This document shows, piece after piece, positions 23,388 through 41,961 of a stretch of 41,961 nucleotides of DNA (positions are counted from its first letter, which is position 1; each line of letters begins with the position of its first letter). Both the position numbers and the translations under genes were made by a program. Under the pieces are notes generated by a model that saw only the letters and a program-made list of their open reading frames with translations, had not been told where the DNA came from and searched no databases. The DNA is from Bacteroidales bacterium Phil12 (GTDB lineage: Bacteria > Bacteroidota > Bacteroidia > Bacteroidales > P3), in NCBI GenBank assembly GCA_002633275.1, contig NWBO01000090.1:1-41961 (forward strand), given 5' to 3'.

Positions 23388-23388
23388 A

Positions 23389-23925: not shown

Positions 23926-24011
23926 TTCTTATTATTTTTATTTATAGTGTACAATAAACTTTCAAAATCAAACTATAATCAAATACATCATTCATCTCTA
24001 TATAGGTAATT

Positions 24012-24638: not shown

Positions 24639-24699
24639 AGGTTATTATGTTCTATAAGTTGTAATGCCTACAACAATCTTGTTGCAACTTAATTTGGTC

Positions 24700-25902
24700 T
24701 TATTCCTGTTCAATAATATCAGCTACATAACGGACAGTATAGTGCGAAAGCAAATAATTATGTCCAAGAACTCCCATACGTTCAATGTTCGACTTATCAT
24801 CAACGAAATATTGCATAGACGACATAAATGCTTGCAAATCGCCATTGATACACGCCTTGCCAAACCCCTTTGCCTCTGCCAACCGTCCCATATCAGTAAC
24901 GCTATCAGTAGCAAGAAGCACAGGCATAGAGTTTTCAAGATAAGATAATAAGCGCGACGGAAAATTTGGAATAGTGAAACGAGGATCAAGGAATATCAAC
25001 CCAACATCGCAAGCCCTGACAAGTTTATCATAATCCGACTTTGGTAATGCTGAAAGCAGCGTGCTATTGTTAGGCTTGTTATCTGAGAACCATTTTTTAA
25101 TTTTCGGATACTCCGTACCATTTCCCACAACCATAATATGACTTTCACTCTGAGATTCGTTCGTCTCAATTACTTTCAATAGAAAATTCAACCCCTGAGG
25201 TTTGCCAAGATTTCCTCCATAGATAAACACCGTCTTATCCGCCGAAATACTATATTTTGAAAGAATTTTTTCACGTTCTTCCGATGTCAATTTGCATTGT
25301 TCTATTGGCTCTATGGCATTAGGGCAAAGTTCTACTTTCTCGGGTTTAACTTCCGTATTGTTATCAATGATGTATTGACAATTAGCCAAAGACATACAGC
25401 CTATACGGTCAGAAAGTTGGTAAAGTCTGCGTTCTTTTTTTCTGAACATACGATGCAATAAACTTCCCTCTTTCATCATACCAAGATCTACGGCATTTTG
25501 AGGGAAAATATCTTTAAGCATTAGATAACTTCTCGCAGCGCACCGTTTTTTAATTCCTGCAATAACCTTGTTAAACGTAATAGGCGGAGTGGAATAAATA
25601 ACAAGGTCAAATTTTACATCTCCCAAATACTTCTTTATTGCACAGTCAAACTGTGGCTCCAATAACAATATTCCAATACCCTTTTCAATAATATTGGTCT
25701 TCTGAATATTGAGTGTGCGGATTTTCAGTATCTCGGCCCCCTTATCGTGAATGATATGTGTTGCTTTACCAAGACGCCTCTCTGTTGGACTTGCCACATA
25801 AATATGATGCCCGCGTTTGGCTAATTCCCGCATTAAATCGGGGTATATACCTCTTGCCGACAAAGATGTAAAATCACTTATTGTCAGAAACAGAATATTC
25901 AT
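24700..25902 (-). CDS. wbuB: WbuB-like glycosyltransferase (GT4), probable L-FucNAc transferase
   Basis: 400 residues, GT-B fold. N-terminal half: MNILFLTISDFTSLSARGIY, RGHHIYVASPTERR, IYSTPPITFN and LKDIFPQNAVDLGMM, a combination typical of WbuB-type enzymes of O-antigen loci. C-terminal half: VFIYGGNLGKPQGLNFLL and FLDPRFTIPNFPSRLLSYLENSMPVLLA. It begins directly after the fnlC stop. WbuB is known to transfer L-FucNAc; the three UDP-L-FucNAc genes just upstream make that the best guess, with the PglC product as acceptor. Confidence 0.85.
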   Translation of the reverse strand: MNILFLTISDFTSLSARGIYPDLMRELAKRGHHIYVASPTERRLGKATHIIHDKGAEILKIRTLNIQKTNIIEKGIGILLLEPQFDCAIKKYLGDVKFDLVIYSTPPITFNKVIAGIKKRCAARSYLMLKDIFPQNAVDLGMMKEGSLLHRMFRKKERRLYQLSDRIGCMSLANCQYIIDNNTEVKPEKVELCPNAIEPIEQCKLTSEEREKILSKYSISADKTVFIYGGNLGKPQGLNFLLKVIETNESQSESHIMVVGNGTEYPKIKKWFSDNKPNNSTLLSALPKSDYDKLVRACDVGLIFLDPRFTIPNFPSRLLSYLENSMPVLLATDSVTDMGRLAEAKGFGKACINGDLQAFMSSMQYFVDDKSNIERMGVLGHNYLLSHYTVRYVADIIEQE

Positions 25903-27081
25903 TTATTCTTTCCTCCACACCATTTTATTTACCACTCCCGTGTAGGACTGGATTATTTTGACGACTTTGGTTGAGACGTTTTCTTCGATGTAGTCGGGGA
26001 CGGGGATACCGTAGTCGCCTGCGGCGTTAAGGCTTACCGCCGTATCAACAGACTGCAACAATCCTTTTTCATCTATTCCAGAAAGGATGAAACACGCTTT
26101 GTCCAATGCCTCGGGACGCTCAGTAGAAGTGCGTATGCAAACAGCAGGGAAAGGTTTTCCGATACTTGTGAAGAAACTGCTTTCTTCGGGTAGCGTTCCG
26201 CTATCAGAAACTACTGCAAAAGCATTCATTTGAAGACAATTGTAGTCGTGAAATCCCAAAGGCTCGTGCTGAATGACACGTTTGTCAAGTTCAAAACCGC
26301 TGGTCTCTATACGCTTGCGGCTTCTTGGGTGGCAGGAGTAAAGAATCGGCATATCGTACTTGCGTGCCATTTGGTTTATGGCGTTGAAAAGGCATAGGAA
26401 GTTCTTTTCCGTGTCGATATTCTCTTCGCGATGAGCAGAAAGCAGTATGTAGTTGCCTTTCGTTAGTCCGAGGCGGCTGTGAATATCGCTTGCCTCAATC
26501 TCGGCAAGGTTGTTTCTCAAAACCTCCGCCATTGGAGAACCTGTAACGTAAGTTCTTTCCTTCGGCAGCCCGCAGTCGGCAAGATAGCGGCGTGCGTGTT
26601 CCGAATATGCCATATTCACATCCGAGATAATATCCACTATTCTGCGGTTCGTCTCTTCCGGCAAACATTCGTCCTTGCAACGGTTACCTGCTTCCATATG
26701 GAAAATCGGGATGTGCAGACGCTTTGCCCCGATAACTGAAAGGCAGGAGTTTGTATCTCCAAGCACCAAGACCGCATCTGGCTTTGTCGCAACCATAAGT
26801 TTATAACTCTGTGCGATAATGTTGCCGCAGGTCTCGCCCAAGTCTTCGCCCACAGCGTCCAAATACACTTCGGGCTCGGCAAGTTTCAAATCCTTGAAGA
26901 AAACTCCGTTCAGGTTATAATCATAATTCTGCCCCGTATGAGCAAGAATGGTATCAAAATATTTGCGACACTTGTCGATAACTGCCGCAAGACGGATTAT
27001 TTCCGGGCGTGTGCCTACGATGATAAGCAGTTTCAATCTGCCATCTTCTTTGAACTTTATGTCGTTGTAATTTGTCTGCAT
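25903..27081 (-). CDS. fnlC: UDP-L-FucNAc-forming 2-epimerase (FnlC/CapG/WbjD)
   Basis: Last step of UDP-L-FucNAc synthesis: C2 epimerisation of UDP-L-PneNAc. 392 residues of the non-hydrolysing UDP-GlcNAc 2-epimerase fold: IVGTRPEIIRL (about 21-31), HTGQNYDYNLNGVFF, LGDTNSCLSVIGAKR, HMEAGNRCKDECLPEETNRR, SAHREENID and SDSGTLPEES. It is quite different from the WecB at 14263-15411 (for example HMEAGNRC against HVEAGLRT), in line with a different substrate. The frame starts at 27081, 11 bases after fnlB. Confidence 0.9.
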   Translation of the reverse strand: MQTNYNDIKFKEDGRLKLLIIVGTRPEIIRLAAVIDKCRKYFDTILAHTGQNYDYNLNGVFFKDLKLAEPEVYLDAVGEDLGETCGNIIAQSYKLMVATKPDAVLVLGDTNSCLSVIGAKRLHIPIFHMEAGNRCKDECLPEETNRRIVDIISDVNMAYSEHARRYLADCGLPKERTYVTGSPMAEVLRNNLAEIEASDIHSRLGLTKGNYILLSAHREENIDTEKNFLCLFNAINQMARKYDMPILYSCHPRSRKRIETSGFELDKRVIQHEPLGFHDYNCLQMNAFAVVSDSGTLPEESSFFTSIGKPFPAVCIRTSTERPEALDKACFILSGIDEKGLLQSVDTAVSLNAAGDYGIPVPDYIEENVSTKVVKIIQSYTGVVNKMVWRKE

Positions 27082-27092
27082 TGCTATTCTTT

Positions 27093-28289
27093 TTATACTT
27101 TCTCGAAAAAGGTGTCGGGTCTTTCGGGGTCAAATTGCTCGTTTGCCCACATAAGTGTTACAAGGTTTTCGGTTTCCGACAGGTTAATGATGTTGTGAGT
27201 ATATCCCGGTAGCATATGCACTGCCTCAATCTTGTCTCCCGAAACATAAAAGTTTAACACCTCGTCTGTACCGATTTTGCGCTCCTGTATCAACCCGCGA
27301 CCCGATACTACAATGAAAAACTCCCATTTCGAATGGTGCCAGTGCTGTCCCTTTGTGATGCCAGGCTTCGATATATTGACGCTGAACTGTCCGCACTTGG
27401 CTGTCTTTAATAGTTCTGTGAAACTTCCCCTGTCGTCGCAGTTCATATTCAACTCAAACGCTACCTTTTCTTTTGGCAGATAACTCAAATAAGTACTGTA
27501 CATCTTCTTTGCAAAACTGCCGTTGGCAATCTCGGGCATAAGAAGTGTTTGCGGTTGGGATTTGAAACTGTCAAGTAACTCAACTATCTCGCCAAGTGTT
27601 GCCTTGTGTGTCGTCGGTGCGGCGCAGTATTTGCCTACTTTTGTAGGCACAGACTTTATTCCCTCAAACTCACAGCGGTGTTCTTTACCCTCCAAAGCAT
27701 CAAGCATCTCCGACACAAGGTCATCGATATATAACAGTTCCAATTCCACGCTCGGGTCATTAACCTGTATCGGCAAGTCGTTTGCGATATTGTTGCAGAA
27801 CGTCGCAACAGCCGAGTTATAATTCGGGCGACACCATTTGCCAAAGAGATTCGGAAAACGATACACCAATACCTTTGCACCGGTCTGTTTTGCATAATCG
27901 AACATCAGTTCTTCTCCCGCTTTCTTGCTTCGTCCGTAATCGCTATCGTATCGTCCGATGCAGGTCGCTTGAATGGAAGATGACAACATTACAGGGCAAG
28001 TGTTGGAATGCTTTTTCAAGGTTTCGAGAAGCGTCTCGGCAAATCCGAAGTTACCCTGCATAAACTCCGATTGCTCTTTCGGACGATTGACACCTGCAAG
28101 GTTAAACACGAAATCACATTCCTTGCAGTAGCGGTCTAACTCCTCGGCGGAAGAATCCACATCGTACTCAAACACTTCTTCTATCGAAAGTGCGGGACGT
28201 GTTCTGTCTTTTCCGCTTTGTATATTCCTAAGTGATGCACACAGGTTCTTACCAACGAATCCCTTTGCACCCGTTACCAATATCTTCAT
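27093..28289 (-). CDS. fnlB: CapF/FnlB bifunctional epimerase-reductase for UDP-L-FucNAc
   Basis: 398 residues with two domains. SDR domain at 1-about 265: MKILVTGAKGFVGKNL, FNLAGVNRP, and YGRSKKAGEE with the YxxxK pair. Cupin domain from about 270: QHWHHSKWEFFIVVSGRG (metal-binding His and Glu) and MLPGYTHNIIN. CapF proteins convert the FnlA product to UDP-L-PneNAc by C3 epimerisation in the cupin and C4 reduction in the SDR domain. 164 bases separate it from the fnlA stop; that gap has an A/T-rich region but no clear terminator or promoter. Confidence 0.92.
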   Translation of the reverse strand: MKILVTGAKGFVGKNLCASLRNIQSGKDRTRPALSIEEVFEYDVDSSAEELDRYCKECDFVFNLAGVNRPKEQSEFMQGNFGFAETLLETLKKHSNTCPVMLSSSIQATCIGRYDSDYGRSKKAGEELMFDYAKQTGAKVLVYRFPNLFGKWCRPNYNSAVATFCNNIANDLPIQVNDPSVELELLYIDDLVSEMLDALEGKEHRCEFEGIKSVPTKVGKYCAAPTTHKATLGEIVELLDSFKSQPQTLLMPEIANGSFAKKMYSTYLSYLPKEKVAFELNMNCDDRGSFTELLKTAKCGQFSVNISKPGITKGQHWHHSKWEFFIVVSGRGLIQERKIGTDEVLNFYVSGDKIEAVHMLPGYTHNIINLSETENLVTLMWANEQFDPERPDTFFEKV

Positions 28290-28453
28290 AAATAAATCTG
28301 TGTTGTTTTATTTGGGTTCTACGTTTCAACCGTTGTTTTCTATAAAAATGAAACGGCGTTTTGTCTGCGTGAAATTAAGAAAGATTTTCACGGTTTTAAG
28401 AAACAATCTGACGAAATCAAGAAATAATTTTCGCCAATTAAATTCCTGATAAT

Positions 28454-29503
28454 CTATCTTGCTAGATTCTCTTTTCCCGATAACTCATTTTGGATATATT
28501 CCAAGGCCGCTATCTTTGCCTTTGTCTCTTCCAAATTCAAACGACGGGTGTTGTCGCTGTTGAACTCCTCAATCGTTACGCGCTTCACGTCGCCGTCTAT
28601 GAAGAACTTGTCGTAGTTCAAATCCCTGTTGTCGGCAGGAACACGGAAAAAGTCTCCCATATCCACCGCCTTTGCGCATTCTTCCTTAGTCAGAAGCGTC
28701 TCGTACATCTTCTCGCCGTGGCGTATGCCGATAACCTTTATATCTTCCTTCTTTCCTCCGAACAGCTCGCACACCGCCTCCGCCTGAGTCTGTATTGTGC
28801 AGGCAGGGGCTTTCTGAACCAAGATGTCTCCATTCTCTCCGTGTTCAAACGCAAACAAAACCAAATCCACCGCCTCTTCAAGGCTCATAATAAAGCGCGT
28901 CATCTTCGGCTCGGTCAAAGTAATAGGGTTACCTTTACGTATCTGTTCAATCCACAGCGGAATAACACTGCCTCGCGAACACATCACATTGCCGTAACGT
29001 GTGCAGCAAATCTTTGTCTTGCCCGAATAACGGCTCTTAGCCACCGCTATTTTCTCTTCAACAGCTTTGGTGATGCCCATAGCGTTGATAGGATATGCAG
29101 CCTTGTCTGTCGAAAGACAGATAACACATTTAACGCCTGCCTCTATTGCTGCCGTAAGCACGTTGTCCGTTCCTATCACGTTGGTTCTTACCGCTTCCAT
29201 TGGGAAGAACTCGCAAGAGGGAACCTGCTTCAAGGCTGCGGCGTGGAATATGTAATCCACTCCTGTCATAGCCCCGCGACACGACTCCAACGAGCGCACA
29301 TCGCCTATGAAAAACTTAATCTTATGCGCCACGTCCGGATATTTTACTTGGTATTCGTGCCGCATATCGTCCTGTTTCTTCTCATCACGAGAGAAGATTC
29401 TTATTTCTCCGATGTCCGTTCTGAGAAAACGATTCAATACCGCATTCCCGAATGACCCCGTACCCCCTGTTATCAAGAGGGTCTTATCCTTAAATAAACT
29501 CAT
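28454..29503 (-). CDS. fnlA: UDP-GlcNAc 4,6-dehydratase, 5-inverting (FnlA/CapE/WbjB)
   Basis: First step of UDP-L-FucNAc synthesis. 349 residues; LLITGGTGSFGNAV (about 9-22), FHAAALKQVP, and active-site STDKAAYPINAMGITK (about 131-146) with Met142 replacing the usual Tyr and Lys146, as in CapE. RHGEKMYETLLT follows at about 259-270. It is a short soluble relative of the PglF-like enzyme at 19049-20953. A long frame on the opposite strand (28490-29455) is a shadow. First gene of the fnlA-fnlB-fnlC-wbuB series, with 355 bases of non-coding DNA before it. Confidence 0.93.
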   Translation of the reverse strand: MSLFKDKTLLITGGTGSFGNAVLNRFLRTDIGEIRIFSRDEKKQDDMRHEYQVKYPDVAHKIKFFIGDVRSLESCRGAMTGVDYIFHAAALKQVPSCEFFPMEAVRTNVIGTDNVLTAAIEAGVKCVICLSTDKAAYPINAMGITKAVEEKIAVAKSRYSGKTKICCTRYGNVMCSRGSVIPLWIEQIRKGNPITLTEPKMTRFIMSLEEAVDLVLFAFEHGENGDILVQKAPACTIQTQAEAVCELFGGKKEDIKVIGIRHGEKMYETLLTKEECAKAVDMGDFFRVPADNRDLNYDKFFIDGDVKRVTIEEFNSDNTRRLNLEETKAKIAALEYIQNELSGKENLAR

Positions 29504-29858
29504 ATCGTATTGTTTAGAATTACCTTGTTTAGATTATTGCGGCAAACTCCGCTTGCCACCCGTAAAAACTATCGTCCGACAGCCTTTCGATGCCAAAAAA
29601 TGTCAAAACACTTGCTTTTCCGATGCCAAAAAAATTATTATTGTTGCCAAAAACTTTGATTTACTTGCGTTTCGCAAAAAAAGAAATTGTTGGAATATAT
29701 ATTTGACTCCATTACGAGACAATCCCCACAAGAATTTTATTACAAAATGTATTTCTAAGCGTTACACATTCTTGCTAATGCAACACTTAAAATAACTCTA
29801 CAATAAAAAATGTAACTTACTCCGACAGTCAAGCGACTGTCTAAAAAGACACTAGATA
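29504..29858 (-). promoter_or_regulatory. 355-bp intergenic region upstream of fnlA with short repeats
   Basis: No gene. It holds a repeated CGATGCCAAAAAA (29588-29600 and 29621-29633, 33 bp apart), with a third GCCAAAAA at 29646-29653. These lie about 85-150 bases upstream of the fnlA start, on the minus strand reading TTTTTTGGCATCG. They could be activator sites or an A-tract bent region. They differ from the palindromic arrays elsewhere. No confident -7/-33 pair was found for fnlA. The stretch 29700-29858 shows nothing recognisable. Confidence 0.4.
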
Positions 29859-30386
29859 TTATTTACCCACGTATTTACAAGAACCTAAACCCGACATTTT
29901 ACTTCTGTTCCATGTCTGCTCACTCAAAACAAAGAGGTCTTCTTCTGCTAATAATTCTTTGCCCCATTTTGCTTGTAGCTGCTTTCCCGCAGGTATCTTT
30001 TTTAATAACTTATTTCTTAGTCGCAAAAATAAATTTTTGTCGAATTTATCTATCAGACAAATGTACTTTATCGGTTTATCCACTTTACCTTGGCAAAATC
30101 TGTAAAGGAAAGTGTCTCTATACTTCCCGCACAAACGGTTTATCAAATCATCCAAGGCTTCTTCTTTGCACCCGTTGTTATCCTTATTCAAGGCTGAACG
30201 CTTGTCAAAGCGTTTTATTTCTATAAACAAATAGGTTTTCGGTAACTCAACAATCGCATCAACAGCTTTCATACAATGACTAAGCCCGTGAAAATGCGGA
30301 TTCGCACTATCTTGCTCGTCAAACTTGTACAATTCCAGTGCTTTTGGAAAGACAAACTCGTAATCATCTACCGTAAGCCTACTCAT
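29859..30386 (-). CDS. Small protein with PD-(D/E)xK nuclease-like pattern, partner of ATPase
   Basis: 175 residues, not a family I can name. The N-terminal half shows KAVDAIVELPKTYLFIEIKRF: Asp43, then after 12 residues Glu56-Ile-Lys58 at the end of a predicted beta strand, the layout of a PD-(D/E)xK nuclease core. A helix (EEALDDLINRLCGKYRDTFLY) and another strand (PIKYICLID) follow, which fits the fold. The start overlaps the ATPase gene by eight bases, so the two are coupled. Pairs of an ATPase and a small nuclease are typical of phage-defence modules; the activity here is inference from pattern only. Confidence 0.55.
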   Translation of the reverse strand: MSRLTVDDYEFVFPKALELYKFDEQDSANPHFHGLSHCMKAVDAIVELPKTYLFIEIKRFDKRSALNKDNNGCKEEALDDLINRLCGKYRDTFLYRFCQGKVDKPIKYICLIDKFDKNLFLRLRNKLLKKIPAGKQLQAKWGKELLAEEDLFVLSEQTWNRSKMSGLGSCKYVGK

Positions 30387-31392
30387 CGCTCAACTGTTTA
30401 TTTATCTCTTTATTCAAAAGGCTGTCAAATGCTTCGTCTATGGGATTTTTTTCTATCTTGTCAAAATTGTTTGTTTCACTGCACTCAACAGCACCTTGCT
30501 CAGAACGATAAAGTGAAAAATACTTAATAGGCGTTTCTTTTTTAGTCGCCAAGTCCATTTCTTTCAAAAAAACGTAATCGTGCGTCGTTATAAATATCTG
30601 CACTCCCATTTTTTGCAATTCCAACAATATATTGACAACAATTGCAGTCAGTTTTGGATTCAAATTTGCTTCGGGTTCGTCCCAAAACAACACACTTCCT
30701 TTTATAAGCACTTCGTTTTGTATCAGCTTATACAACAATCCCAACTTCCTAAACCCCTCTGCCAATAAAGTAAATTCCAATTCACCGGATTTATTCTTCA
30801 AAAAAAATTGTTCTTCTTTGACTATCACTTTACCCGACATGACCTTATCCAACTTTTTAAGCAAAGAGTTCTGCTGTTCATTCAAACGACCTCTTGTTGC
30901 AGGCAATAAGGATTTGTCGATAATATCCGAATAAACCTCCTCAAAATGTATATGTTTTTCGGCATACAATGAACGAAAACCGGGAGCATTTGCCAACATA
31001 TCTTTGACGGGAATAAATATAGCCGAATTTCTCCTGTCTTCATTCCATTTAGATTTTTTTACATCTACATTATTCAGTGTACTTATCGTACAGGAAATAT
31101 GTCGCTGCTGTTTGTCTTCCGATGTTCTATACACAGTTACCTTCCCTTTTGAACGACCCACACCTCGATGCACTAATCGTCCTATTGAATTTGGGAGGAA
31201 GACATTCTTCAATTTCTGTCCGAAATCTAAATCCACTCGATTATCTATAACGCTGCAAGCCGCATAAACCGCTTTCATCACGTGCGTTTTACCAGTTCCG
31301 TTTTCCCCTACAAATATGTTTATTCCGTCAGAAAAATTCAATGTCAGTTTATCAAATACTGTAAACTTATCAAAGACAACCTTGTTTATCAT
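30379..31392 (-). CDS. AAA/ABC-type ATPase (AAA_21/AAA_15-like)
   Basis: 337 residues. Walker A FVGENGTGKTHVM (GENGTGKT at 29-36), a signature-like LLAEGFRKLGLL (about 209-220), Walker B VLFWDEPEANLNPKL (about 234-248), and switch His271 in IFITTHDY. This is the SMC/RecF-like ATPase head without a long coiled coil, the type found in OLD, PARIS, Septu and many uncharacterised defence operons. MINKVVFDKFTVFDKLTLNF is the usual start. Nothing links it to sugar chemistry. It has a strong promoter box just upstream and a coupled partner downstream, so it is probably an independent cargo module inside the polysaccharide locus. Confidence 0.85.
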   Translation of the reverse strand: MINKVVFDKFTVFDKLTLNFSDGINIFVGENGTGKTHVMKAVYAACSVIDNRVDLDFGQKLKNVFLPNSIGRLVHRGVGRSKGKVTVYRTSEDKQQRHISCTISTLNNVDVKKSKWNEDRRNSAIFIPVKDMLANAPGFRSLYAEKHIHFEEVYSDIIDKSLLPATRGRLNEQQNSLLKKLDKVMSGKVIVKEEQFFLKNKSGELEFTLLAEGFRKLGLLYKLIQNEVLIKGSVLFWDEPEANLNPKLTAIVVNILLELQKMGVQIFITTHDYVFLKEMDLATKKETPIKYFSLYRSEQGAVECSETNNFDKIEKNPIDEAFDSLLNKEINKQLSDE

Positions 31393-31416
31393 AGCACTTT
31401 ATCCAATAAATTTTTG

Positions 31417-31452
31417 CAAAGATACAATAAAAAATTATATCGCCTATTCAAA
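31417..31452 (-). promoter_or_regulatory. Promoter of the ATPase/nuclease-like pair
   Basis: On the minus strand TATCTTTGCA (-7 box at 31424-31417) is a near-ideal Bacteroidota promoter element. GTTTG (TTTG at 31452-31449), 24 bases upstream, may be the -33 box at longer than usual spacing. It overlaps the end of the upstream gene and lies 25 bases before the ATPase start, so this pair can be transcribed on its own. Confidence 0.6.
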
Positions 31453-32520
31453 CGGAACATTTTTTATATCCATTAAAGCCACATCGTTTTTCTTTGTGGC
31501 GATTGGTTGAAAGTAAAGAGTATCGCTATTATTCACGCCGTTCGGAAACTTAAACACTCCAAATTGGAATATAAACGGCAAGTAGTCTTTCTTTGCCGAA
31601 TATATTTCTCGGAAACCATTCTCACAATCTCCACAATACAAATGAACACTATCGTCTTTAATTCCCGAACCTCTTTTACGATTAAACAATAATCCTTTTA
31701 AAGACTGATTTCTGCCGTCAGGTTCAACCGTAGAAGAAAGTACATATTGATTTTTCCATTTACAACCATAGATACAAGACCCAGCTATTTCACCAATCGA
31801 CCTTAACTGCAATGTATGTACATTCCATACATATATATGATTATTAGCAAAAGGCGTATCCGTTGCATACAAAAGACCTTCTTTAATTGGGAAAACAACA
31901 CAGGCTCTGTATTTTTGATTTCCGCCACATATTTTTTCAACTTTATTGAAATCATCACTAACTTTCCAAATAGCCGCCGCATCATCAAAATCCCCTGTAA
32001 ATACCCAAAGACATTCTCTGTATTTATCTGCAACTATATTATGGATATGATTTATTTCCCCCTGCGCAAATGTATGTACAACTTCCCAGTCGTTAGTACT
32101 TACACGGCGGTATATGTTAACTGGTTTTTTCATTGAATTTCCGAGATACCCACCAAACACCACACCGTCCGCAAAGCCTTTTAGCTCTTTCACATTTGTA
32201 AAAATCAGCGGTCTTATTCCGACTGGCAGTGTATATCCTTTCGATAGACTATTCTTTGAAAAACAATACTCATACAAAACATTCTTTACTGAAATAAGTA
32301 TGTTATCATCATCTAAAGCTATTGCCGTCCTAATACCCAACCTTTTGAGACGATAATATAATTTACTTTTTGCCAATACTCTTTCTTCAAAAGAAGAGAA
32401 CAACCTATATTTTCCGACAATCTTTCCTTCTTCCAACACGTACAGCATTCCATACCTATAACAAACTAAATTGCCATTAGGAAAAAAGCATATCGGACTT
32501 GTATGAGACATCTTTTTCAT
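31444..32520 (-). CDS. Unknown protein, beta-propeller-like
   Basis: 358 residues, no signal peptide, not a family I recognise. It shows a series of short beta-type blocks with aromatic residues at fairly regular intervals: PNGNLVCYRYGMLYVLEEGK, DDDNILISVKNVLYEY, GVVFGGYLGN, CLWVFTGDFDDAAAIWKV, GLLYATDTPFANNHIYVW and YVLSSTVEP. IHNIVAD and the WVFTGD block resemble sialidase- or Kelch-like propeller repeats. It sits between an AAC(3)-type gene (13 bases away) and the ATPase promoter, in a run of polysaccharide genes, so a role in glycan assembly or modification is possible but unproven. Confidence 0.45.
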   Translation of the reverse strand: MKKMSHTSPICFFPNGNLVCYRYGMLYVLEEGKIVGKYRLFSSFEERVLAKSKLYYRLKRLGIRTAIALDDDNILISVKNVLYEYCFSKNSLSKGYTLPVGIRPLIFTNVKELKGFADGVVFGGYLGNSMKKPVNIYRRVSTNDWEVVHTFAQGEINHIHNIVADKYRECLWVFTGDFDDAAAIWKVSDDFNKVEKICGGNQKYRACVVFPIKEGLLYATDTPFANNHIYVWNVHTLQLRSIGEIAGSCIYGCKWKNQYVLSSTVEPDGRNQSLKGLLFNRKRGSGIKDDSVHLYCGDCENGFREIYSAKKDYLPFIFQFGVFKFPNGVNNSDTLYFQPIATKKNDVALMDIKNVPFE

Positions 32521-32533
32521 ATTCTCAAACCAA

Positions 32534-33487
32534 TTATTTTTTAATCAAGTCTTTTTTCGCAACTACGTAAGGATATGCAGGATTGCGTTTCATCTTATCC
32601 TTGATAAAATCAAACAACTCACTAGTTTTTGTCATCAATATAGGCACTCCGTCAACCTCATAGCATTTAATTATTTTTTCATTCAGCATATCCTTATTGA
32701 AATTCGTTTCAGCATATCTCTTTGTCCATTTATGAACTCTCTCATTAAAGATTATCTCCTTTTGGAAATCTTTGTCTACTACCTTGAAGCGTCGTTTAAA
32801 GAACCAATCCTTCACAGGCCAATCTCCGCACTCTTGCAAGTTGTGGAAAATAGTCAAAAAGCCTTCAATCGGAATACCCAATCCAATATTCCATGCATCT
32901 TTCTTTACACAATAATCCCAACAAGAGCCTACGCCATGTGCGGTGATAAAGGGCATATCAATATTTCCTTTCATCATATTTTCTACATCTTTACCGATTG
33001 CAACCAATGGATTGTGTGGGCATCTACTAATGTGAGCTTCTGGTCTTTTTGTCATCACGTACGGTAAATATCCTGAGGTTATCTTTGTTTCATTAACGTC
33101 ATAAACAGAAACCTTTCCATCAAAGCTTTGGAAAATATAGTCCTCGTATGGTTCGTCCTCGGGATACTTTCTTATAGCAGGCATTGCAATCGTACCATTT
33201 GGGACTACACTTAGCAATGAATCTATGATTGATTCAGCTGTACAGCTTTTCTTGAATGGAGAATATGCAGTGTGCAGAACCATTATATCATCCTGTCTAA
33301 CACCTTTATCTTTCAAAAGTCTAACAATCTTTGCAAAATCTACTTTTTGTGTGGGCATATCCACATGATTACTTATCTTGAACCTCCTAAACACTTTGAC
33401 ATTATTCCAATACAATGTTCTCAAAGCGACCTCAAAATAAGGCGAACTATTCACTAATTTGTGATATAATGTTGAAACTATTTCCAT
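32534..33487 (-). CDS. AAC(3)-family acyltransferase, probably acting on a sugar
   Basis: 317 residues of the Antibiotic_NAT fold. Seen: LLKDKGVRQDDIMVLHTAYS (about 55-74), SIIDSLLSVVPNGTIAMPAIRKYP, ITSGYLPYVMTKRPEAHISRCPHNPLVAIG (the HP block), and AHGVGSCWDYCVKKDAWNIGLGIPIEG. It is clearly related to, but far from, the protein encoded at 10356-11228, so each locus has its own version. Expected to N-acylate an amino sugar or lipid-linked glycan. Drug acetylation is possible in principle but the setting argues against it. Nine bases separate it from the upstream GT gene. Confidence 0.8.
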   Translation of the reverse strand: MEIVSTLYHKLVNSSPYFEVALRTLYWNNVKVFRRFKISNHVDMPTQKVDFAKIVRLLKDKGVRQDDIMVLHTAYSPFKKSCTAESIIDSLLSVVPNGTIAMPAIRKYPEDEPYEDYIFQSFDGKVSVYDVNETKITSGYLPYVMTKRPEAHISRCPHNPLVAIGKDVENMMKGNIDMPFITAHGVGSCWDYCVKKDAWNIGLGIPIEGFLTIFHNLQECGDWPVKDWFFKRRFKVVDKDFQKEIIFNERVHKWTKRYAETNFNKDMLNEKIIKCYEVDGVPILMTKTSELFDFIKDKMKRNPAYPYVVAKKDLIKK

Positions 33488-33495
33488 ATCAATTT

Positions 33496-34674
33496 TTATT
33501 CTATCATACCTTTCAAATACTTATCGGCAACATTGTAGTCACTGTACGCCCGAGCAGTCTCCTTTGCTCTTTCGGACATCAGTTGTAATTCATCTGCTGG
33601 CATAGCATTGATTTTCTTTATTATTTGAATTAACTCTTCCTCGCAACCTGCTTGACATAAGAAGCCGTTATATCCATCAATTATAATACTATCCATACCT
33701 TCATTTCTTGAAGCAACCGTAATGCAACCCATTGCCATTGCTTCAAGATATACCAAGCCAAAAATCTCTCCTTTTGATACCATTATAAATACATCCGAGG
33801 ATTTCAAATAAGGTATCACCTTTTCTCTGCTAACAAAACCTGTAAATTTTACCTCTCCTTTTGTTTTTGTTCGTTCTATTGCTCCTCGCTCCGCTCCCTC
33901 TCCAACGTATGTTAGGTGAAATCCGCCATCTGGGTACGTTATATTCAAGGCTGACAATATCACACCTGGATACTTCCGTGAAATCAAAGCACCAACATAG
34001 ATGAAATTATTAATTTCTCTATCAGAAAAGCACCTTTCATAGTTTCCACTTTCAACAAATACTTTACTCACCCCTGAATATGCCATAAAGCATTTTTTAG
34101 GCGGATTGTACTTCTTCAAATAATTCTGCTTTGATGTGGTATTTCTAAAACCAAGTGCATCAAATACATTTAAGACTTGTTTAACTCCCTTGCCATGCGC
34201 TTTTTCTAAATCGAACTCATTGTTATGTAATATCAAGGCAATAGGAACTCCGATTCTTCTTTTTATCTCTGGTAGTAATTCCAATTGTGGAATATCCCAA
34301 TGTCCGATGAACCAATCAGGATTGCCATTTTGGTCGCAATAATTCTTAACCTCATTCAACACCCTTTCACATTCTCGTTTTGCTATTTTTGTATGTGGGA
34401 TTATTTTGTTTATTGGTATATGTTTTACCATTACACCATCCATAACCTCATCATACTTTTTGGACACTTGTGCCGGAGTCATTGATAACATCTTAGGAAT
34501 TTGTCGAGCAATCAGATAATAAATACTTGGAAATTTTGACTGAAGATGAAACACACAAACTTCATGTCCCATTTTCACCCATTCTTTCGCAAAATAATGA
34601 ACCACGCACGTATCCTTAAAGTAGCCCCCATCCTTATAAGTTGGGTAGATTGGAGTTAACACATATATCTTCAT
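33496..34674 (-). CDS. Glycosyltransferase, GT4 family
   Basis: 392 residues, GT-B fold. N-terminal half MKIYVLTPIYPTYKDGGYF and GHEVCVFHLQS; then FMAYSGVSKVF; C-terminal half NNFIYVGALISRKYPGVIL, VKFTGFVSREKVIPYLKSSDVFIMVSKGEIFGLVYLEAMAMGCITVAS. The GEIFGLVYLEAMA block with its conserved Glu is the GT4 donor site. Retaining cytoplasmic transferase; sugar unknown. Six bases separate it from the ugd-type gene upstream, so they are one operon. Confidence 0.88.
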   Translation of the reverse strand: MKIYVLTPIYPTYKDGGYFKDTCVVHYFAKEWVKMGHEVCVFHLQSKFPSIYYLIARQIPKMLSMTPAQVSKKYDEVMDGVMVKHIPINKIIPHTKIAKRECERVLNEVKNYCDQNGNPDWFIGHWDIPQLELLPEIKRRIGVPIALILHNNEFDLEKAHGKGVKQVLNVFDALGFRNTTSKQNYLKKYNPPKKCFMAYSGVSKVFVESGNYERCFSDREINNFIYVGALISRKYPGVILSALNITYPDGGFHLTYVGEGAERGAIERTKTKGEVKFTGFVSREKVIPYLKSSDVFIMVSKGEIFGLVYLEAMAMGCITVASRNEGMDSIIIDGYNGFLCQAGCEEELIQIIKKINAMPADELQLMSERAKETARAYSDYNVADKYLKGMIE

Positions 34675-34680
34675 ATTTTT

Positions 34681-35988
34681 TTAATCTCTTCTGAAAATGT
34701 CGCGCGTATAGACTTTGGTTTGGACGTCGTCAAGGCAGGTGTCATAACGGTTGGCGATGATTGCTTGCGACTGACTTTTGAACTCTGCAAGGTCATTGAC
34801 AACGCGACTGCCGAAGAATGTGCTGCCGTCTTCAAGCGTAGGTTCGTATATGATTATTTCCGCACCCTTTGCCTTGACACGTTTCATTACGCCCTGTATG
34901 GACGATTGACGAAAATTGTCGCTATTGGACTTCATCGTAAGGCGATACACACCTATCGTGCAATGCTTCTCGTCCTTTGGGGAATAGCTTCCTCGCTCAG
35001 CGTAATTATAATAACCCGCCTTGTGAAGCACTTGGTCTGCAATAAAGTCCTTTCGCGTGCGGTTGCTCTCAACAATTGCCGACATCATATTCTGTGGAAC
35101 ATCGGCATAATTGGCAAGCAGTTGTTTGGTATCCTTCGGGAGACAGTATCCGCCATAACCGAATGACGGATTGTTGTAATGCGTTCCTATTCGAGGGTCT
35201 AAGCCTATACCTTCGATTATCGCCGATGAATCCAAGCCCTTGACCTCTGCATAAGTGTCCAACTCATTGAAATAACTGACGCGCAACGCAAGATAAGTAT
35301 TAGCAAAGAGTTTCACCGCTTCGGCTTCTTTCATTCCCATAAACAGAGTAGGAATGTCCGTCTTTATCGCACCCTGTTGCAAAAGCCCTGCAAAGGTTTT
35401 CGCCGCCTTTTCAAGTAAATCCACATCGGCAATGCTTTTTATCGCTTCGTTTTCCTCACCGAACTCCTCTGCGTTCATCATCTTGGGATAGCCCACAATG
35501 ATACGGCTCGGATAGAGGTTGTCATAAAGGGCTTTGCTCTCACGTAGAAATTCAGGCGAGAACAAGAGATTGAACTTCTTTACTCCCTTGGCTGCATACT
35601 TGACGTAGAGACTGCGGCAGTATCCTACGGGAATAGTTGATTTTATCACCATAACCGCTTCGGGATTGACGCTGAGAATATGGTCTATAACGTCCTCAAT
35701 GCAATGCGTGTCGAAATAGTTCTTGACAGGGTCGTAGTTCGTCGGCGTTGCAATGACAATAAAGTCCGCATCCGCGTATGCCGCCCTCCCGTCAAGCGTT
35801 GCTGTAAGGTTCAACGGCTTTTCGGCGAAATACTTTTCTATGTACTCATCTTGTATCGGGGATTTACGTTGATTGATTTGTTCGACCTTCTCTGCCACGA
35901 CATCCACAGCCGTAACCTCGTTGTGCTGCGAAAGCAATGTCGCTATACTAAGTCCGACATACCCAGTGCCGGCTACTGCTATCTTCAT
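34681..35988 (-). CDS. ugd: UDP-glucose 6-dehydrogenase-type nucleotide sugar dehydrogenase
   Basis: 435 residues. [16 protein letters not shown] (GTGYVG at 7-12), IATPTNYDP (about 79-87), [10 protein letters not shown] (about 114-123), FSPEFLRE (about 143-150), and the catalytic Cys282 in [15 protein letters not shown]. The FSPEFLRES and GGYCLPKDT blocks and length favour a UDP-glucose dehydrogenase (to UDP-GlcA) over the WecC type encoded at 818-2023. It is the first gene after the right-hand HU triplet, as the GT at 7883 is on the left. The product would supply a uronic acid to the second polysaccharide. Confidence 0.88.
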
Positions 35989-36969: not shown

Positions 36970-37377
36970 TTATTCTTCGTTTTTCTTGTTGTAATCGCGT
37001 TTGATTCTGAACAGCGACTCTTTCAAAGCCTCCTTAATCTTTGGCGAAGGTTTGAATATAAGTTTCATACGCTTTACGGTGTCCAAAGAAAGTTCTTCAC
37101 TTGTCTTTCGCGATTCAGCCTCAATGGATAGTTCCACCTTGCCCAACGCCCCGAGTTCTGTTCCGCGACCGTCCTCGATGTTTTCGACAACCATCTGCGC
37201 CACTTCGGTTAAAACGAACAACTCCACTTCGCCCTCCGTGAGTGTCGTCTTATGGGCAATCTGCCTACACACCTGAGCGAAATCCAACGCCCTGATTTTG
37301 CGGACTTGCAGGAAATGTATTGTCTGCTGTTCTTTTTGGAACCGCTGTGTTACCGAATGAGGTTCAAGATTTACCAT
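36970..37377 (-). CDS. HU/IHF-family DNA-binding protein, first of right triplet
   Basis: 135 residues starting MVNLEPHSVTQRFQ. HU core with ALDFAQVCRQIAHKTTLTEGEVELFVLTEVAQMV, GRGTELGALGKVELS and LDTVKRMKLIFKPSPKIKEAL, ending in a basic tail (FRIKRDYNKKNEE). Counterpart of the gene at 6459-6890, which has GAGVELGALGKVEPS and a similar basic tail. It is the gene nearest the right repeat array, 134 bases downstream of it on the minus strand. TAATTTTG lies just before its ATG but too close to be a normal promoter box. Confidence 0.83.
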   Translation of the reverse strand: MVNLEPHSVTQRFQKEQQTIHFLQVRKIRALDFAQVCRQIAHKTTLTEGEVELFVLTEVAQMVVENIEDGRGTELGALGKVELSIEAESRKTSEELSLDTVKRMKLIFKPSPKIKEALKESLFRIKRDYNKKNEE

Positions 37378-37695
37378 ATTCCAAAATTAACTTAGTTGAA
37401 TGTTTTTCGTTTTTTTGCCTGCTGTTTCGGTTTCATTGTTTGGCGTTTTCAAACCTCAGAAAAATGTTTTTATCCTTTACCTTTTTGTTTTTCGTCCTTT
37501 GCTTAGCAATAAAAAACCTTAGCTTTTTACCCATAAAACCCTAGGTTTTCACCCTAAAAACCCTGGGATTTTACCTCAAAAACCTTAGTTTTTTCACCAC
37601 TCCCCTAAGGACTTAAAACAAAAACAAAAGGTGAAAAAACAATTACCAAAGAATGAAAAACAAAAAGGTATAGTCAAAATGCGTAAATCAAAACA
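37378..37695 (-). promoter_or_regulatory. 318-bp intergenic region with palindromic repeats, upstream of right HU triplet
   Basis: No gene. Contains the four-unit array at 37511-37597 and, between it and the first HU gene, an A-rich stretch on the minus strand. The layout (Wzy or GT stop, repeat array, about 90-135 bases, first HU start) is the same as at 6075-6458. No sure promoter box was seen. Confidence 0.6.
37511..37597 (-). repeat. Tandem 22-bp palindromic repeats (4 units)
   Basis: Four units spaced exactly 22 bp: the first C after the A run is at 37517, 37539, 37561 and 37583. Units follow AAAAACCYTRGGTTTTT; the second, AAAACCCTAGGTTTT (37535-37549), is nearly a perfect palindrome. 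On the minus strand the spacers read GAGGT, AGGGT and TGGGT, like the left array. The palindrome core here (CCTAGG-like) is the one seen as a lone copy at 6198-6214 on the left, while the left array has GTC/GAC cores. Confidence 0.85.
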
Positions 37696-38859
37696 TCATT
37701 TACTCCAATATGTGCGGTAAGTCATCACAACTCCCAATATCATCCAGTGCGTGTAGGTTGTTATCCAATAGCCTGAAAACATATTCATCACCAAGCCGAA
37801 CAAACTGATTATGGCAAGGATAACGAAAATGTCGTTTCGAGACAAAAGTGAAAAAATAGTCTTGTAGAGTTTCACAAATACCAAAATCAAGAAAACCAGT
37901 CCCAAGATACCGACCTCTATGATAAAATCCAAAAACATATTGTGTGTATAAAATCCAAAGGAATAATATGCCCCTCCAAGACCGTAACCCATAAAATAGT
38001 TATCCGTTACGTAATGCCATATATTCCTCCAAAGTACGAAACGGTCGTCATCATTGAGCAGATTGGAAGAACGAGCAAATCCGGCAGCGTCCCAAAGATG
38101 CAGGTAGTTTGCAATCAATAAAAAAAGACAAACGCCCAATGTGGCTATTACGACAAGTCCCGACATTTTAATAACCTTCAAACGCAGCAACATATAACAT
38201 AGTACAATCAAATAGACAACAAGCAACACAACGCCACCGCGTCCGCCCGACAAACAACAGCCGACAGACTGAAACGGAAGACAGACTGCGCAGAGAATTT
38301 TTATGATTTTTGGTGTTGAGTCCTTGTTGATTAAAACGTAATAGGAACTGAATCCGAACAAGTACGCCAAACAATATGCAACAGTCTGATAATTCAATCC
38401 TCCCTCTACGCTCATTTGACCGTAATCCATTGCATTTTCAAGCGTTGAGACAAGCAAAAACGGAGTCAAGGCGATGCAAACCAAAGGAAGAATCTTATGG
38501 ATTGTCGAATAACTCTTCAATTTCATCAATGTCATTCCAATAAAACAAGCAGAAACACAATCTGCTCCCCAGCGAAGGAATTGTCCCTGATAACCTTCCG
38601 AAACGTAGGAATAAAAGAAGCGTGTGCAATAGTACATAAGCCCAAAGAAGAATAGCACTCCTATGACTTTTATTTCTTGGTTGGTTTTCTTGTAGATCAG
38701 ATAGAACAGAATCGAAAGAATGAATATCGTAACAAGAAAAATACGCATAAACATACCGTTCATTTCAAGACCGTTCCTGCCGAATATAACGCAGGCTATC
38801 GGCTCCCAAAAAAGGTAGAGACAGAAGAAGAGTGAAAAAAGTTTATCTTTAATCTGCAT
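37696..38859 (-). CDS. wzy: O-antigen ligase/polymerase (Wzy-like) membrane protein
   Basis: 387-residue polytopic membrane protein with about ten hydrophobic spans. CCLSGGRGGVVLLVVYL is followed by a long loop containing FVLWRNIWHYVTDNYFMGYGLGGAYYSFGFYTHNMFLDFIIEVGILGL. That GYGLGGAYYS...THNMFLDFIIE arrangement is typical of the O-antigen ligase/Wzy group and is parallel to the protein at 3607-4920 but with little close identity. Expected to polymerise the repeat units of the right-hand locus. Starts 11 bases inside the end of the GT gene upstream. Confidence 0.77.
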   Translation of the reverse strand: MQIKDKLFSLFFCLYLFWEPIACVIFGRNGLEMNGMFMRIFLVTIFILSILFYLIYKKTNQEIKVIGVLFFFGLMYYCTRFFYSYVSEGYQGQFLRWGADCVSACFIGMTLMKLKSYSTIHKILPLVCIALTPFLLVSTLENAMDYGQMSVEGGLNYQTVAYCLAYLFGFSSYYVLINKDSTPKIIKILCAVCLPFQSVGCCLSGGRGGVVLLVVYLIVLCYMLLRLKVIKMSGLVVIATLGVCLFLLIANYLHLWDAAGFARSSNLLNDDDRFVLWRNIWHYVTDNYFMGYGLGGAYYSFGFYTHNMFLDFIIEVGILGLVFLILVFVKLYKTIFSLLSRNDIFVILAIISLFGLVMNMFSGYWITTYTHWMILGVVMTYRTYWSK

Positions 38860-40075
38860 AACACATGTCGCCTATCAAATTAACGTATGCTCTCGGAGTG
38901 TCAAGCAAAAACATTGATTCCACTGTCTCGAAAGGAACGCTTTTACCCAAATTCTTCTCGATAAAAATATCAAAACGCTCAACAGCTTCGTCCATAGAGC
39001 CCGACATATTAAGCGTAAGACACAAAGGATACTTGGAAAAGGTGTTGGCATTAACATCTTGCGGATTGTCGTACAGTACAATCATAGGGTGCGAATACGA
39101 CATATACTCATAACATTTGCTGCAAATTGAATTGACATCACCAGGAAAGGAAACGAAGGCATCAACTTTGCGATAAACACTCAAAAGCTCCGCAACAGGT
39201 ACGTAGCCCGGTGATTGTATCGAACCCTTGAAGAGGGAACGCAAGGCGTTGAACCCTGTTTCGGAATATCCCTTGCTGAAAAATATCAGGTTCAACTTCT
39301 CTGCCGAGTTTGAGCGGTTAAGCATCTCAACCAATCTTGGTAAAAACTCGGGACGAACAATGCTACCAGAATACAAAATATTGATTTTCCCCTCCTTCAC
39401 TACGCTCAAATAAGAAGTTTCAACCGGCGGTATCGGACGGATTATGGACGGTATGCCCAAATAACTGCGTTTGCCGACAGCCACAGGCAAATCTCCGCGA
39501 TGCTCGTGGAATTTTGTCAAAGGATATAGAGAAATCAAACGGTCAGAGTATTTGGCAATGAAAGTCTCTAACTTTTTTTGTCTTCTTTCTGCAAATTTCA
39601 TCGGAATAACCCTCGCTGGTTTTTTGCCATAGATATTATCCCAAAAAATTACAAGAAGATTGTCTATGATATTGTGCTTTTTCAATATTGCGCCCACAAT
39701 TATGCTTTCTTCGGGATAGCATTGTGCAACAACCAAATCAAATTTCTCCTTTTCACATATAGTTTTGCAAGCCTTGTAATGAGACCAAATTCTGCAAAAA
39801 GACGAAATGGGATAAATCGGTATGGTCAATAGTATTTGAAGATGGGTCCAAAAACGACTTTTTGGAGGTTTCTTCTTCAATGGTATAGGGTGCAGAGTTA
39901 TGTTGGGAATAATTGCATAGGGCTGATGTCCTTTTTTATCTTGAATATAAGAAACGCAATGCACATCAAAGCGAGCATCCTCAGCTAACTCTTTCATTAT
40001 TTTGGTACTGCAAGCTGCACTAGCATTGTAGTAACCATAAGGATAAACGTATGTAAGAAATAAGATCTTCTTCAT
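38849..40075 (-). CDS. Glycosyltransferase, GT4-like
   Basis: 408 residues. Starts MKKILFLTYVYPYGYYNASA, a common GT4 opening with a conserved loop for the acceptor. Later INILYSGSIVRPEFLPRLVEML (about 231-252), IQSPGYVPVAELLSVYRKVDAFVSFPGD and SKCYEYMSYSHPMIVLYDN form the C-terminal donor domain, where KCYEYM takes the place of the usual EGFGL/KxxEYM block. Sugar unknown. It overlaps wzx by four bases and wzy by 11, so the three are one operon. Confidence 0.8.
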   Translation of the reverse strand: MKKILFLTYVYPYGYYNASAACSTKIMKELAEDARFDVHCVSYIQDKKGHQPYAIIPNITLHPIPLKKKPPKSRFWTHLQILLTIPIYPISSFCRIWSHYKACKTICEKEKFDLVVAQCYPEESIIVGAILKKHNIIDNLLVIFWDNIYGKKPARVIPMKFAERRQKKLETFIAKYSDRLISLYPLTKFHEHRGDLPVAVGKRSYLGIPSIIRPIPPVETSYLSVVKEGKINILYSGSIVRPEFLPRLVEMLNRSNSAEKLNLIFFSKGYSETGFNALRSLFKGSIQSPGYVPVAELLSVYRKVDAFVSFPGDVNSICSKCYEYMSYSHPMIVLYDNPQDVNANTFSKYPLCLTLNMSGSMDEAVERFDIFIEKNLGKSVPFETVESMFLLDTPRAYVNLIGDMCYAD

Positions 40076-41520
40076 CGCTTCAAAAATTTCTGTTTCAATA
40101 TGTCTTTGATGTATTCGTATGCCGACAATCTAAACACCAACGAAAGAAACACATATATCGCCACGTACAAGACACATTGCACGATTGCCACAACAAAGAC
40201 ATTGAGATGTATAAAACTGCCAACGAAATAAATAAACGTTCCAACGACTATGGATAGAACCACAAAAGGAAGAATGTCTTTGAATTGCTCTATGAAACAG
40301 TAGCCGACATACTTATCGACCAAATAAGCATTGATAACATAGACAAGCCAAGCCCCCAAGACACACATCCACAACATTCCATACATACCTGCGATAAAAA
40401 TTCCGACAACGCAAAGAACAATAGTTGAAGCTCGCTTGATTATCGTCCATTTGAAAAATATATTGCTCTTTCCGATTGCGGCTATACTGTTATTTGCAGA
40501 ACCTTGAAGACAGACTGCCAAACCAGCAACGCAAAGAATCTGTAAATACGGAACGCAGTCAAGCCATTTTGCTCCATAGACAAGCAAGACCAAAGGTTTG
40601 GCAACAACAATCACAATGCCCATAACCAACGCGGAGATATATGCAGGAATCTGAATAAATTTTTTAAGAGCCACTATCAAACGTGCCTTATCGTCTTGAA
40701 TAGACGACATAACGGGATAAGTTACCTGGTCAATTACACCGGAAACCGCAGTAGCCATAGACCCTTCCAAGCGATATGCCTGATTGTACAAGCCCAAACG
40801 TGCAGGCGAGAATATACGTCCGACAAGAAGCCCTTGTATTTCGTTGCTCAACGAACTGAACAGATTAGAAAGCAACATAAATCCACCAAACTTGAATAAC
40901 TCTCTAAACGATTGAAAAGAAAACACCGCCTTAGGCTGCCAATTTCCAACAATCCACAGCAAAACAGCCTTGAACAGACTTAGTGATATTTGTTGAATAA
41001 CAAGGCTCCAAGCCCCCAAGCCATTAAACGCCGCAATTATAGCCAAAGCCAAAGACGATACGGCAGAAACTATTTCGACAATAGACAACTTCTTAAAAAG
41101 AAGCCGTTTGCGAAGTTGGTTGCTCTGAATAATGCCAAACGCATTAAAAATCAATACAACACCCTGTACTCTCAACACCGAAGCAAGCAATGGAATACGA
41201 AAAAAACCTGCTATCAGTGGAGCACCCACGTATAAAAGGAGATATAAGACTATTGAGAAGAATACATTCCAATAAAATATGGTCGAATAATCCTCTTGTG
41301 TAGGTTCTTTCTTCTGTATCAACGCCGAACCAAAGCCGCCGTCAATGAAAGTATTGGAAAGCGTGATGAATATCATCAGCATTCCGACACATCCGAAGTC
41401 CGTCGGAGATAACAGGCGTGCAAGGATTACATTCGCCGCAAAGGTTATCGCCATTGAACTGAACCTTTGCACGGAAGTCCAAAAAACGCCTGATATGGTT
41501 TTCTGTTGTAGATGGTTCAT
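40072..41520 (-). CDS. wzx: Wzx-type polysaccharide flippase (PST family)
   Basis: 482 residues with about 12-14 hydrophobic spans. N-terminus TISGVFWTSVQRFSSMAITFAANVILARLLSPTDFGCVGML and later GFGSALIQKKEPTQEDYSTIFYWN are typical of the WzxC-like branch, which is distinct from the flippase encoded at 2272-3591. It should export the undecaprenyl-linked unit of the right-hand locus. Its start is seven bases after the stop of the broken acyltransferase upstream, so they are, or were, one operon. Confidence 0.9.
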   Translation of the reverse strand: MNHLQQKTISGVFWTSVQRFSSMAITFAANVILARLLSPTDFGCVGMLMIFITLSNTFIDGGFGSALIQKKEPTQEDYSTIFYWNVFFSIVLYLLLYVGAPLIAGFFRIPLLASVLRVQGVVLIFNAFGIIQSNQLRKRLLFKKLSIVEIVSAVSSLALAIIAAFNGLGAWSLVIQQISLSLFKAVLLWIVGNWQPKAVFSFQSFRELFKFGGFMLLSNLFSSLSNEIQGLLVGRIFSPARLGLYNQAYRLEGSMATAVSGVIDQVTYPVMSSIQDDKARLIVALKKFIQIPAYISALVMGIVIVVAKPLVLLVYGAKWLDCVPYLQILCVAGLAVCLQGSANNSIAAIGKSNIFFKWTIIKRASTIVLCVVGIFIAGMYGMLWMCVLGAWLVYVINAYLVDKYVGYCFIEQFKDILPFVVLSIVVGTFIYFVGSFIHLNVFVVAIVQCVLYVAIYVFLSLVFRLSAYEYIKDILKQKFLKR

Positions 41521-41526
41521 TATAGT

Positions 41527-41938
41527 TTATCTGCGATATATTCCGTACAGGATAGGAATATATTTCTTCACAAATAGGTTAATAGGGATAAATATCAACA
41601 AGATTAGCAAGGCTTCAACGTACAGAAGAGCACCTGACAAACGATAAATGTTCTGCAAGACTACAATTATGATCGGATGCAAGCCTAATATAATCATAGT
41701 CCCCCCCCCCTAAAATACTTATATTCAATTTTCTAAACAACTTACCCAACAAGACCGAAATAACGAATACCAAGCATGTTCCGGTAATACCTCCCAAAAG
41801 ACATAACAACAAATTGTTTCCGTAGGAACATCTATACAAGAAAACAGTGCCGTTATACTTACCGCATAGATAGGTAGGAATAGCGCATATGACAAATAGC
41901 AGTAAATACCAACCAGTTGAGCGAGAATGTAGTTTGTT
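41527..41938 (-). pseudogene. Acyltransferase-3-like membrane protein, N-terminally truncated and frameshifted at a G10 tract
   Basis: Read on the minus strand, the frame from 41938 gives about 76 residues, including GWYLLLFVICAIPTYLCGKYNG, CSYGNNLLLCLLGGITGT and LRKLNISILGGG-like sequence, up to ten G at 41710-41701. The next frame then continues TMIILGLHPIIIVV...IPINLFVKKYIPILYGIYRR to the stop at 41527. The two parts join into the C-terminal half of an acyltransferase family 3 (O-acetyltransferase-like) membrane protein. A tract of 9 or 12 G would restore one frame. Upstream, the frame meets a TAG at 41941-41939 inside the terminal repeat, so the N-terminal two thirds, with the catalytic His, are absent. 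Confidence 0.7.
41701..41710 (-). repeat. Homopolymer tract of ten C (G on coding strand)
   Basis: Ten consecutive C on the + strand lie inside the acyltransferase reading frame. With ten, the C-terminal part is out of frame and translation stops at 41617-41615; nine or twelve would join it in frame. Long G/C runs in AT-rich genes are classical slippage sites in phase-variable surface genes. An assembly or base-calling length error is the alternative. Confidence 0.85.
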
Positions 41939-41961
41939 CTATAACGGACACCAACGAGGTC
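41938..41961 (-). repeat. Right copy of 24-bp terminal inverted repeat
   Basis: Exact reverse complement of bases 1-24. Read on the minus strand it would also encode DLVGVRYR, but that frame leads into sequence unlike WecA (TNYILAQLVGI and then a stop), while the acyltransferase frame meets TAG within the repeat. The copy therefore looks out of place next to the acyltransferase, whereas the left copy is a natural part of wecA. Confidence 0.9.

Follow-up and report, generated by a model that had tools for sequence, protein, structure and literature searches.

The closest described systems are the phasomes of Campylobacter, Helicobacter and Neisseria, in which G runs lie in or upstream of surface-glycan, adhesin and restriction-modification genes, dozens of them per genome. 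In C. jejuni NCTC11168, 29 loci have tracts of at least seven, according to the accessible text of PMC4965091, and tracts of Helicobacter and Campylobacter are treated in the available portions of PMC12003011 and PMC6437147. For Bacteroides and Bacteroidales, phase variation is presented as inversion in the accessible parts of two 2025 reviews (PMC11868660, PMC12632263). Slippage was nevertheless proposed in 2010 for the acetyltransferase of B. fragilis PSI/9, whose frame is shifted by one C added to a run of four Cs (PMC3090145, portion available).

The DNA analysed here (the window, 41,961 bases) is the entire contig C90 of G000, a 2.96 Mb genome of an uncultured gut Bacteroidales assembled in 174 contigs. 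Its plus strand carries ten C at 41701–41710, that is, ten G on the coding (minus) strand, and this G10 tract is the sole G/C run of six or longer in the window. The pattern G8 has three overlapping matches in the window, against a mean of 0.26 in shuffled sequences, with three or more in only 2 of 100 shuffles. The tract and its surroundings are as follows.

41701–41710, minus strand: G10 homopolymer inside the acyltransferase gene (direct sequence and frames)
41711–41935, minus strand: upstream acyltransferase-3-like piece, open nearly to the contig end (open frame; homologue alignment)
41527–41700, minus strand: downstream piece with the C-terminus, the stop and the TMIILGLH stretch (frame; 44% identity to homologue residues 278–334)
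40072–41520, minus strand: wzx-like flippase (Pfam Polysacc_synt_3, E 1.2e-91)
37696–38859, minus strand: O-antigen ligase/polymerase-like gene (Pfam Wzy_C, E 9.6e-12)
22734–35988, minus strand: further polysaccharide genes (Pfam)
41938–41961, no strand: inverted copy of window bases 1–24, a probable assembly artefact (sequence comparison)

The initial annotation had placed the ten G exactly at the point where an acyltransferase frame breaks, and had described the gene as cut at the window end. Direct sequence and frame analysis bear out the former, and the contig end does truncate the gene. The frame on the 5′ side of the tract ends in LNISILGGG, whereas the piece on the 3′ side begins with TMIILGLHP in a different register. 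At ten G both halves are therefore open but out of register, the length of the tract setting the register, and the upstream frame as assembled runs open for 27 codons beyond the tract. The stop of the downstream piece (41527–41529) lies 6 bases ahead of the wzx ATG at 41520. Codon usage scores are highest in the acyltransferase frame both for the upstream piece (0.104, versus −0.039 and −0.036 in the other frames) and for the downstream piece (0.19, versus −0.179 and −0.005), with wzx scoring 0.25 in frame for comparison. Across the roughly 135 codons outside the suspect 24 terminal bases, the tract is the only stop or frame break.

The surrounding genes are those of a polysaccharide locus. 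Pfam matches between 22734 and 35988 on the minus strand include a PglD-like acetyltransferase, a sugar transferase, glycosyltransferases, epimerases and a nucleotide-sugar dehydrogenase, together with genes of other or unknown kinds (AAA_21, Antibiotic_NAT, no match). A search of genome contigs with wzx as the query found no relative. The search for inverted repeats in 37000–41961 (arms of at least 14 bases, at most 3 kb apart) gave six pairs, none of which brackets the tract; the promoter of the acyltransferase gene lies outside the contig. Between the Wzy_C and HU-HIG genes, at 37475–37673, an imperfect 27-base inverted repeat (89%) with arms 145 bases apart may represent an inverton or nothing more than low-complexity repeats.

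The outermost bases on the acyltransferase side, 41938–41961, are probably an assembly artefact, since the inverted 24-mer is confined to the two contig ends (no third copy was found in G000 with up to three mismatches allowed) and its copy at the beginning of the contig codes for DLVGVRYR in a wecA-like gene (Glycos_transf_4). Read in the acyltransferase frame, the 24-mer contains a stop. The tract lies only about 230 bases from this suspect end, which counts against reading it as a slippage site. A poly-G artefact of read ends was considered for the tract and rejected, because protein-homologous sequence is present on both of its flanks.

Neither fragment of the split gene was recognised by Pfam, whether singly or joined by X; only sub-threshold FUSC-like and YesK matches were returned. 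The X-joined query matched 16 of 393 genomes of the order, G000 among them. The best match outside G000, in G330, is 35% identical over query residues 10–134 (E 4.4e-19) and belongs to a 341-codon open frame, whose protein is an Acyl_transf_3 member (PF01757, Pfam E 5.6e-21). This intact homologue aligns over both halves as a single protein, and the assignment of the split gene to the acyltransferase-3 family rests on it. The conserved catalytic residues of acyltransferase-3 proteins sit in the N-terminal part, which here falls beyond the contig end; a search of the G000 assembly for the N-terminal half returned only the two known pieces at E values up to 1.

Realignment covered 10 of the 16 other matched places. 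Four open-frame homologues (L158, L159, L162 and L174) align over the tract site, where they have SVG, SNG, SKN and STG, and further on each has a Ser or Thr six residues ahead of a His. One place (L169) aligns only before the tract site, four of the ten did not reproduce, and the match at L163 is to what appears to us to be an unrelated permease. The four open-frame homologues have no tract and unrelated codons at the site, which counts against slippage. According to the initial annotation, relatives with an intact gene and unrelated codons in place of the tract would speak against a switch. Such relatives exist, but they leave the case undecided, because identity is no higher than 35% in the best of them, the four belong to other families, and the acyltransferase piece has no match at E 1e-4 in 189 other genomes of the same family. 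Given this last result, the gene was perhaps acquired.

The same lack of family matches, together with the incompleteness of the gene and its being out of register in the assembly, would also be expected of a pseudogene, permanently broken and with an accidental tract. However, some 135 codons otherwise free of stops and breaks, a coding signal on both sides and a C-terminus that aligns with that of the homologue argue against decay, and we consider this explanation quite improbable.

Tracts of this kind are widespread in the genome. In G000, 41 separate G/C runs reach a length of at least nine, with lengths of 9 (15 runs), 10 (17), 11 (6) and 12, 13 and 14 (one each). On its contig C53 (395 kb, 37% GC), 12 such runs are found, compared with about 0.035 expected under an order-3 Markov model and 0.024 under order 2. 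The counts of G/C runs on C53 for lengths 4, 5, 6, 7, 8, 9, 10, 11, 13 and 14 are 363, 43, 3, 1, 1, 4, 5, 1, 1 and 1, so that lengths 6–8 are rarer than 9–14, whereas A/T runs fall off smoothly and lack such an excess. A sister species, G013, has in 120 kb one run of six, none of seven or eight, one of nine and two of 11. In assorted Bacteroidales, 80 loci around IleS (992 kb) contain three runs of nine or longer.

Tract counts in 14 genomes of the genus are 41, 15, 12, 21, 0, 26, 1, 40, 5, 30, 3, 4, 0 and 31. By raw counts, at least one tract is present in 87 of 101 genomes (G000 and its relatives), and in a phylum sample of 392 genomes with completeness of at least 90, only 2 of the 391 others exceed 41 (58 and 57). 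By IleS, the closest relatives with a name are two metagenome genomes from roe-deer rumen (86 and 85% identity). Loss of mismatch repair was tried as a cause of the tracts and rejected, because MutS_I is present in G000 and in 12 of the 14 genus genomes in all; the two genomes that have no match do not rank with the most tract-rich ones (12 tracts in G002, 4 in G011).

Could the break simply be an error of sequencing or assembly, that is, a homopolymer miscall or a consensus of mixed lengths over a gene that is intact and fixed in the cell? The tract is close to a contig end whose 24-base repeat looks artefactual, and one other tract of the genome (C53:51987) adjoins NN. Two further tracts lie on contigs C27 and C48, whose genes look foreign to us; the honest range for G000 is therefore 38–41. 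On the other hand, so long a G run, whatever its exact length, greatly exceeds what chance would give in G000, and several tracts recur at homologous sites in separately assembled genomes. We regard a miscall as unlikely.

The positions of the tracts were scored against open reading frames of at least 100 codons. Eleven of the 41 lie within a frame; the other 30 lie outside, where genes interrupted by their tract, the acyltransferase among them, are also counted. Of random C53 positions, 379 of 2998 lie outside frames (51 of 400 in a smaller sample). The containing or next frame is on the G strand for 30 of the 41 tracts, compared with 1487 of 2998 random positions (Fisher p 0.003; the control split 1487 to 1511 in this larger sample, which was used, and 228 to 172 in the sample of 400).

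Proteins chosen in or downstream of tracts, 17 from G000 and 10 from G013, were scanned with Pfam, and 3 of the 27 had no match. Among the matches in G000 are DUF3575 (three), DUF3868, fn3 repeats (two), Wzz/GNVR, Hexapep, PagL, LRR_5 with Por_Secre_tail (524 bases from its tract), HU-HIG, FHA and WG repeats; DUF3575 and DUF3868 proteins are encoded in fimbria operons. In G013 the tract is inside the frame of N6_Mtase and Methylase_S genes, and the other matches include Cleaved_Adhesin, LRR_5, Peptidase_S8, a protein kinase and an aldo/keto reductase fusion. Tracts are found inside adhesin-like, glycan and fimbria-type genes or up to about 0.5 kb ahead of them, and others are at housekeeping genes. 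The latter, which count against a switching role, include DsbD-like and small-methyltransferase genes and, by eye, a tRNA-like stretch near IleS. Two further tracts lie near the 3′ end of the frame, at codon 821 of 835 in the Wzz/GNVR gene and at codon 379 of 390 in a PagL-like gene, and are unlikely switch sites. Some tracts may have no role at all.

Several individual tracts deserve mention in their own right. In G013, runs of G9 lie inside type I restriction-modification genes at L223 (N6_Mtase) and L209 (Methylase_S), which makes these loci candidates for a phase-variable methylation system. At four other places of that genome (L196, L198, L201 and L208), tracts lie at or near codons that by eye resemble an N-terminal signal peptide in exported-type proteins, a candidate further route to switching secretion on and off. 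In G000, an in-frame G9 at C56:190–198 (L056) lies in a hexapeptide acyltransferase-like gene, a possible second sugar-modifying gene with a tract, although its Hexapep match is at the cut-off score.

Of the 41 tracts in G000, 11 were assigned by eye to a repeated leader. It consists, in order, of a TAnnTTTG motif (11 of 11 copies), an ATG or similar start, about 20 codons, the tract and then ATTTT (9 of 11). Copies are found on G000 contigs C53, C14, C64, C101, C152 and C158 and also in the genus genomes G005 and G011 (L175–L191), some of them without a long G run, and they precede HU-HIG, BspA-like, Sel1-like (by eye) and FHA genes. A search of the 14 genus genomes with one copy gave at least 10 places in G000, 5 in G005 and 2 in G011, with 40 of 57 first-look candidates scored in G000. 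The 10 matches in G000 comprise 8 of the 11 copies recognised by eye and two places that have no long run; the other three copies were unmatched. Runs at the G005 and G011 places listed measure 9, 9, 9, 10 and 13; of the remaining places there, L179 shows a broken G-rich stretch, like L185 in G000, and L180 shows none.

A position of the tracts upstream of promoters was also considered and rejected, since a −7 motif occurs within 120 bases downstream of 7 of 41 tracts and of 24 of 171 random intergenic positions, which is no enrichment. Just downstream of promoters, the corresponding figures are 18 of 41 and 36 of 171. This signal belongs to the leader family, because only 7 of 30 tracts show it once the 11 leader copies are removed.

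Tract lengths differ at corresponding sites. A G10 tract at C53:251727 and a G13 tract of G013 (L221) sit at matching offsets between two homologous stretches, one of 1395 bp (78.6%) and one of 78 bp (75.6%), although the bases directly beside the two tracts do not align. Two DUF3575 paralogues carry, at almost the same place, a G10 in frame and a G11 out of frame. In G013, the duplicate contigs C4 and C7 (L197, L203) share at least 112,560 bp with two differences, one a SNP and the other a tract of G11 versus G12. The shared stretch contains only three tracts in 112,560 bp, so that a chance hit on a tract is unlikely. Since this difference falls only 28 bases into C7, and the contamination of G013 is rated at 9%, it could still reflect an error in the consensus where the contig begins, or a second strain.

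Length differences of this sort also bear on the idea that slippage takes place during transcription or translation. Long homopolymers can cause slippage of the polymerase or the ribosome, and in that event a G run of fixed length would yield a constant fraction of full protein. Differing tract lengths at homologous sites are instead what is expected of change at the DNA level, and we judge this explanation very improbable.

In our view, the G10 tract is likely to be a slipped-strand contingency locus, situated within the acyltransferase-3 gene that belongs to the polysaccharide locus. A single tract in a single assembly becomes believable as such through the genome-wide pattern. Poly-G slippage on an acyltransferase next to wzx, as suggested by the initial annotation, is credible because tracts of 9–14 G are enriched, in several cases lie at genes typical of contingency loci and vary in length between homologous sites. 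Replication slippage would add or remove a G and thereby move the two halves of the gene in and out of register, and some cells of a population would produce the complete membrane acyltransferase, others a product that ends 27 codons past the tract. The substrate of the complete enzyme would be a surface glycan, acylated (most probably acetylated) around the time when the adjacent Wzx and Wzy proteins export it. The assembled length corresponds to the OFF register, plausibly an OFF-state locus, in which expression of the closely spaced wzx may also be reduced by polarity.

As for the wider set, we give an even chance to the joint proposal that a poly-G phasome operates genome-wide in this genus of uncultured gut Bacteroidales, with about 40 tracts in its richest genomes. 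Such a phasome would span surface glycans, fimbria-type and adhesin-like exported proteins and type I restriction-modification, and would include the multicopy leader as a unit of promoter, short leader peptide and poly-G whose tract length would tune downstream expression. The pattern of about forty tracts suggests that these bacteria may switch surface genes by copying slips beside DNA flipping. If so, a second, recombinase-free switching layer exists in an order known for its invertons; surveys of invertons only would overlook surface diversity if G-run slippage acts at such a scale, and frame-broken genes in metagenome assemblies of this kind should not be called pseudogenes until the tract has been inspected.

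In the literature, the mechanism of slippage is known, and its scale in Bacteroidales is not described among the matches listed; by their titles and the opening of their abstracts, none of these open-licence papers deals with poly-G slippage phase variation in Bacteroidales. Terms for Bacteroidota are absent from PMC2831843, and the main text of PMC9558356, as available, has no word beginning with Bacteroid. The contrast with promoter inversion drawn by the initial annotation agrees with the accessible parts of PMC11868660 and PMC12632263, but slippage had already been proposed for the B. fragilis acetyltransferase (PMC3090145, portion available).

Compared with the phasomes of Campylobacter, Helicobacter and Neisseria, G000 has G runs at similar positions, in similar gene classes and in similar number. 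Unlike in those phasomes, the host belongs to the Bacteroidales, a repeated leader carries some of the tracts, and the set is known from assemblies alone. Phase-variable surface O-acetylation by the AT3 family, to which the split gene is assigned, is represented by oafA of H. influenzae and oafB of Salmonella in the available text of PMC9558356; there, the switching of oafB is described as epigenetic in S. Typhi, whereas the G run here lies within the reading frame. The case of B. fragilis PSI/9, as given in the accessible part of PMC3090145, concerns a far shorter run and a difference between strains, in contrast to the genome-wide set of long tracts found here. With the invertible capsule promoters of gut Bacteroidales, the expected outcome is the same, namely on/off variants of surface polysaccharide (PMC12632263, in the part available), but those promoters switch by DNA inversion through an invertase, and slippage is proposed here instead.
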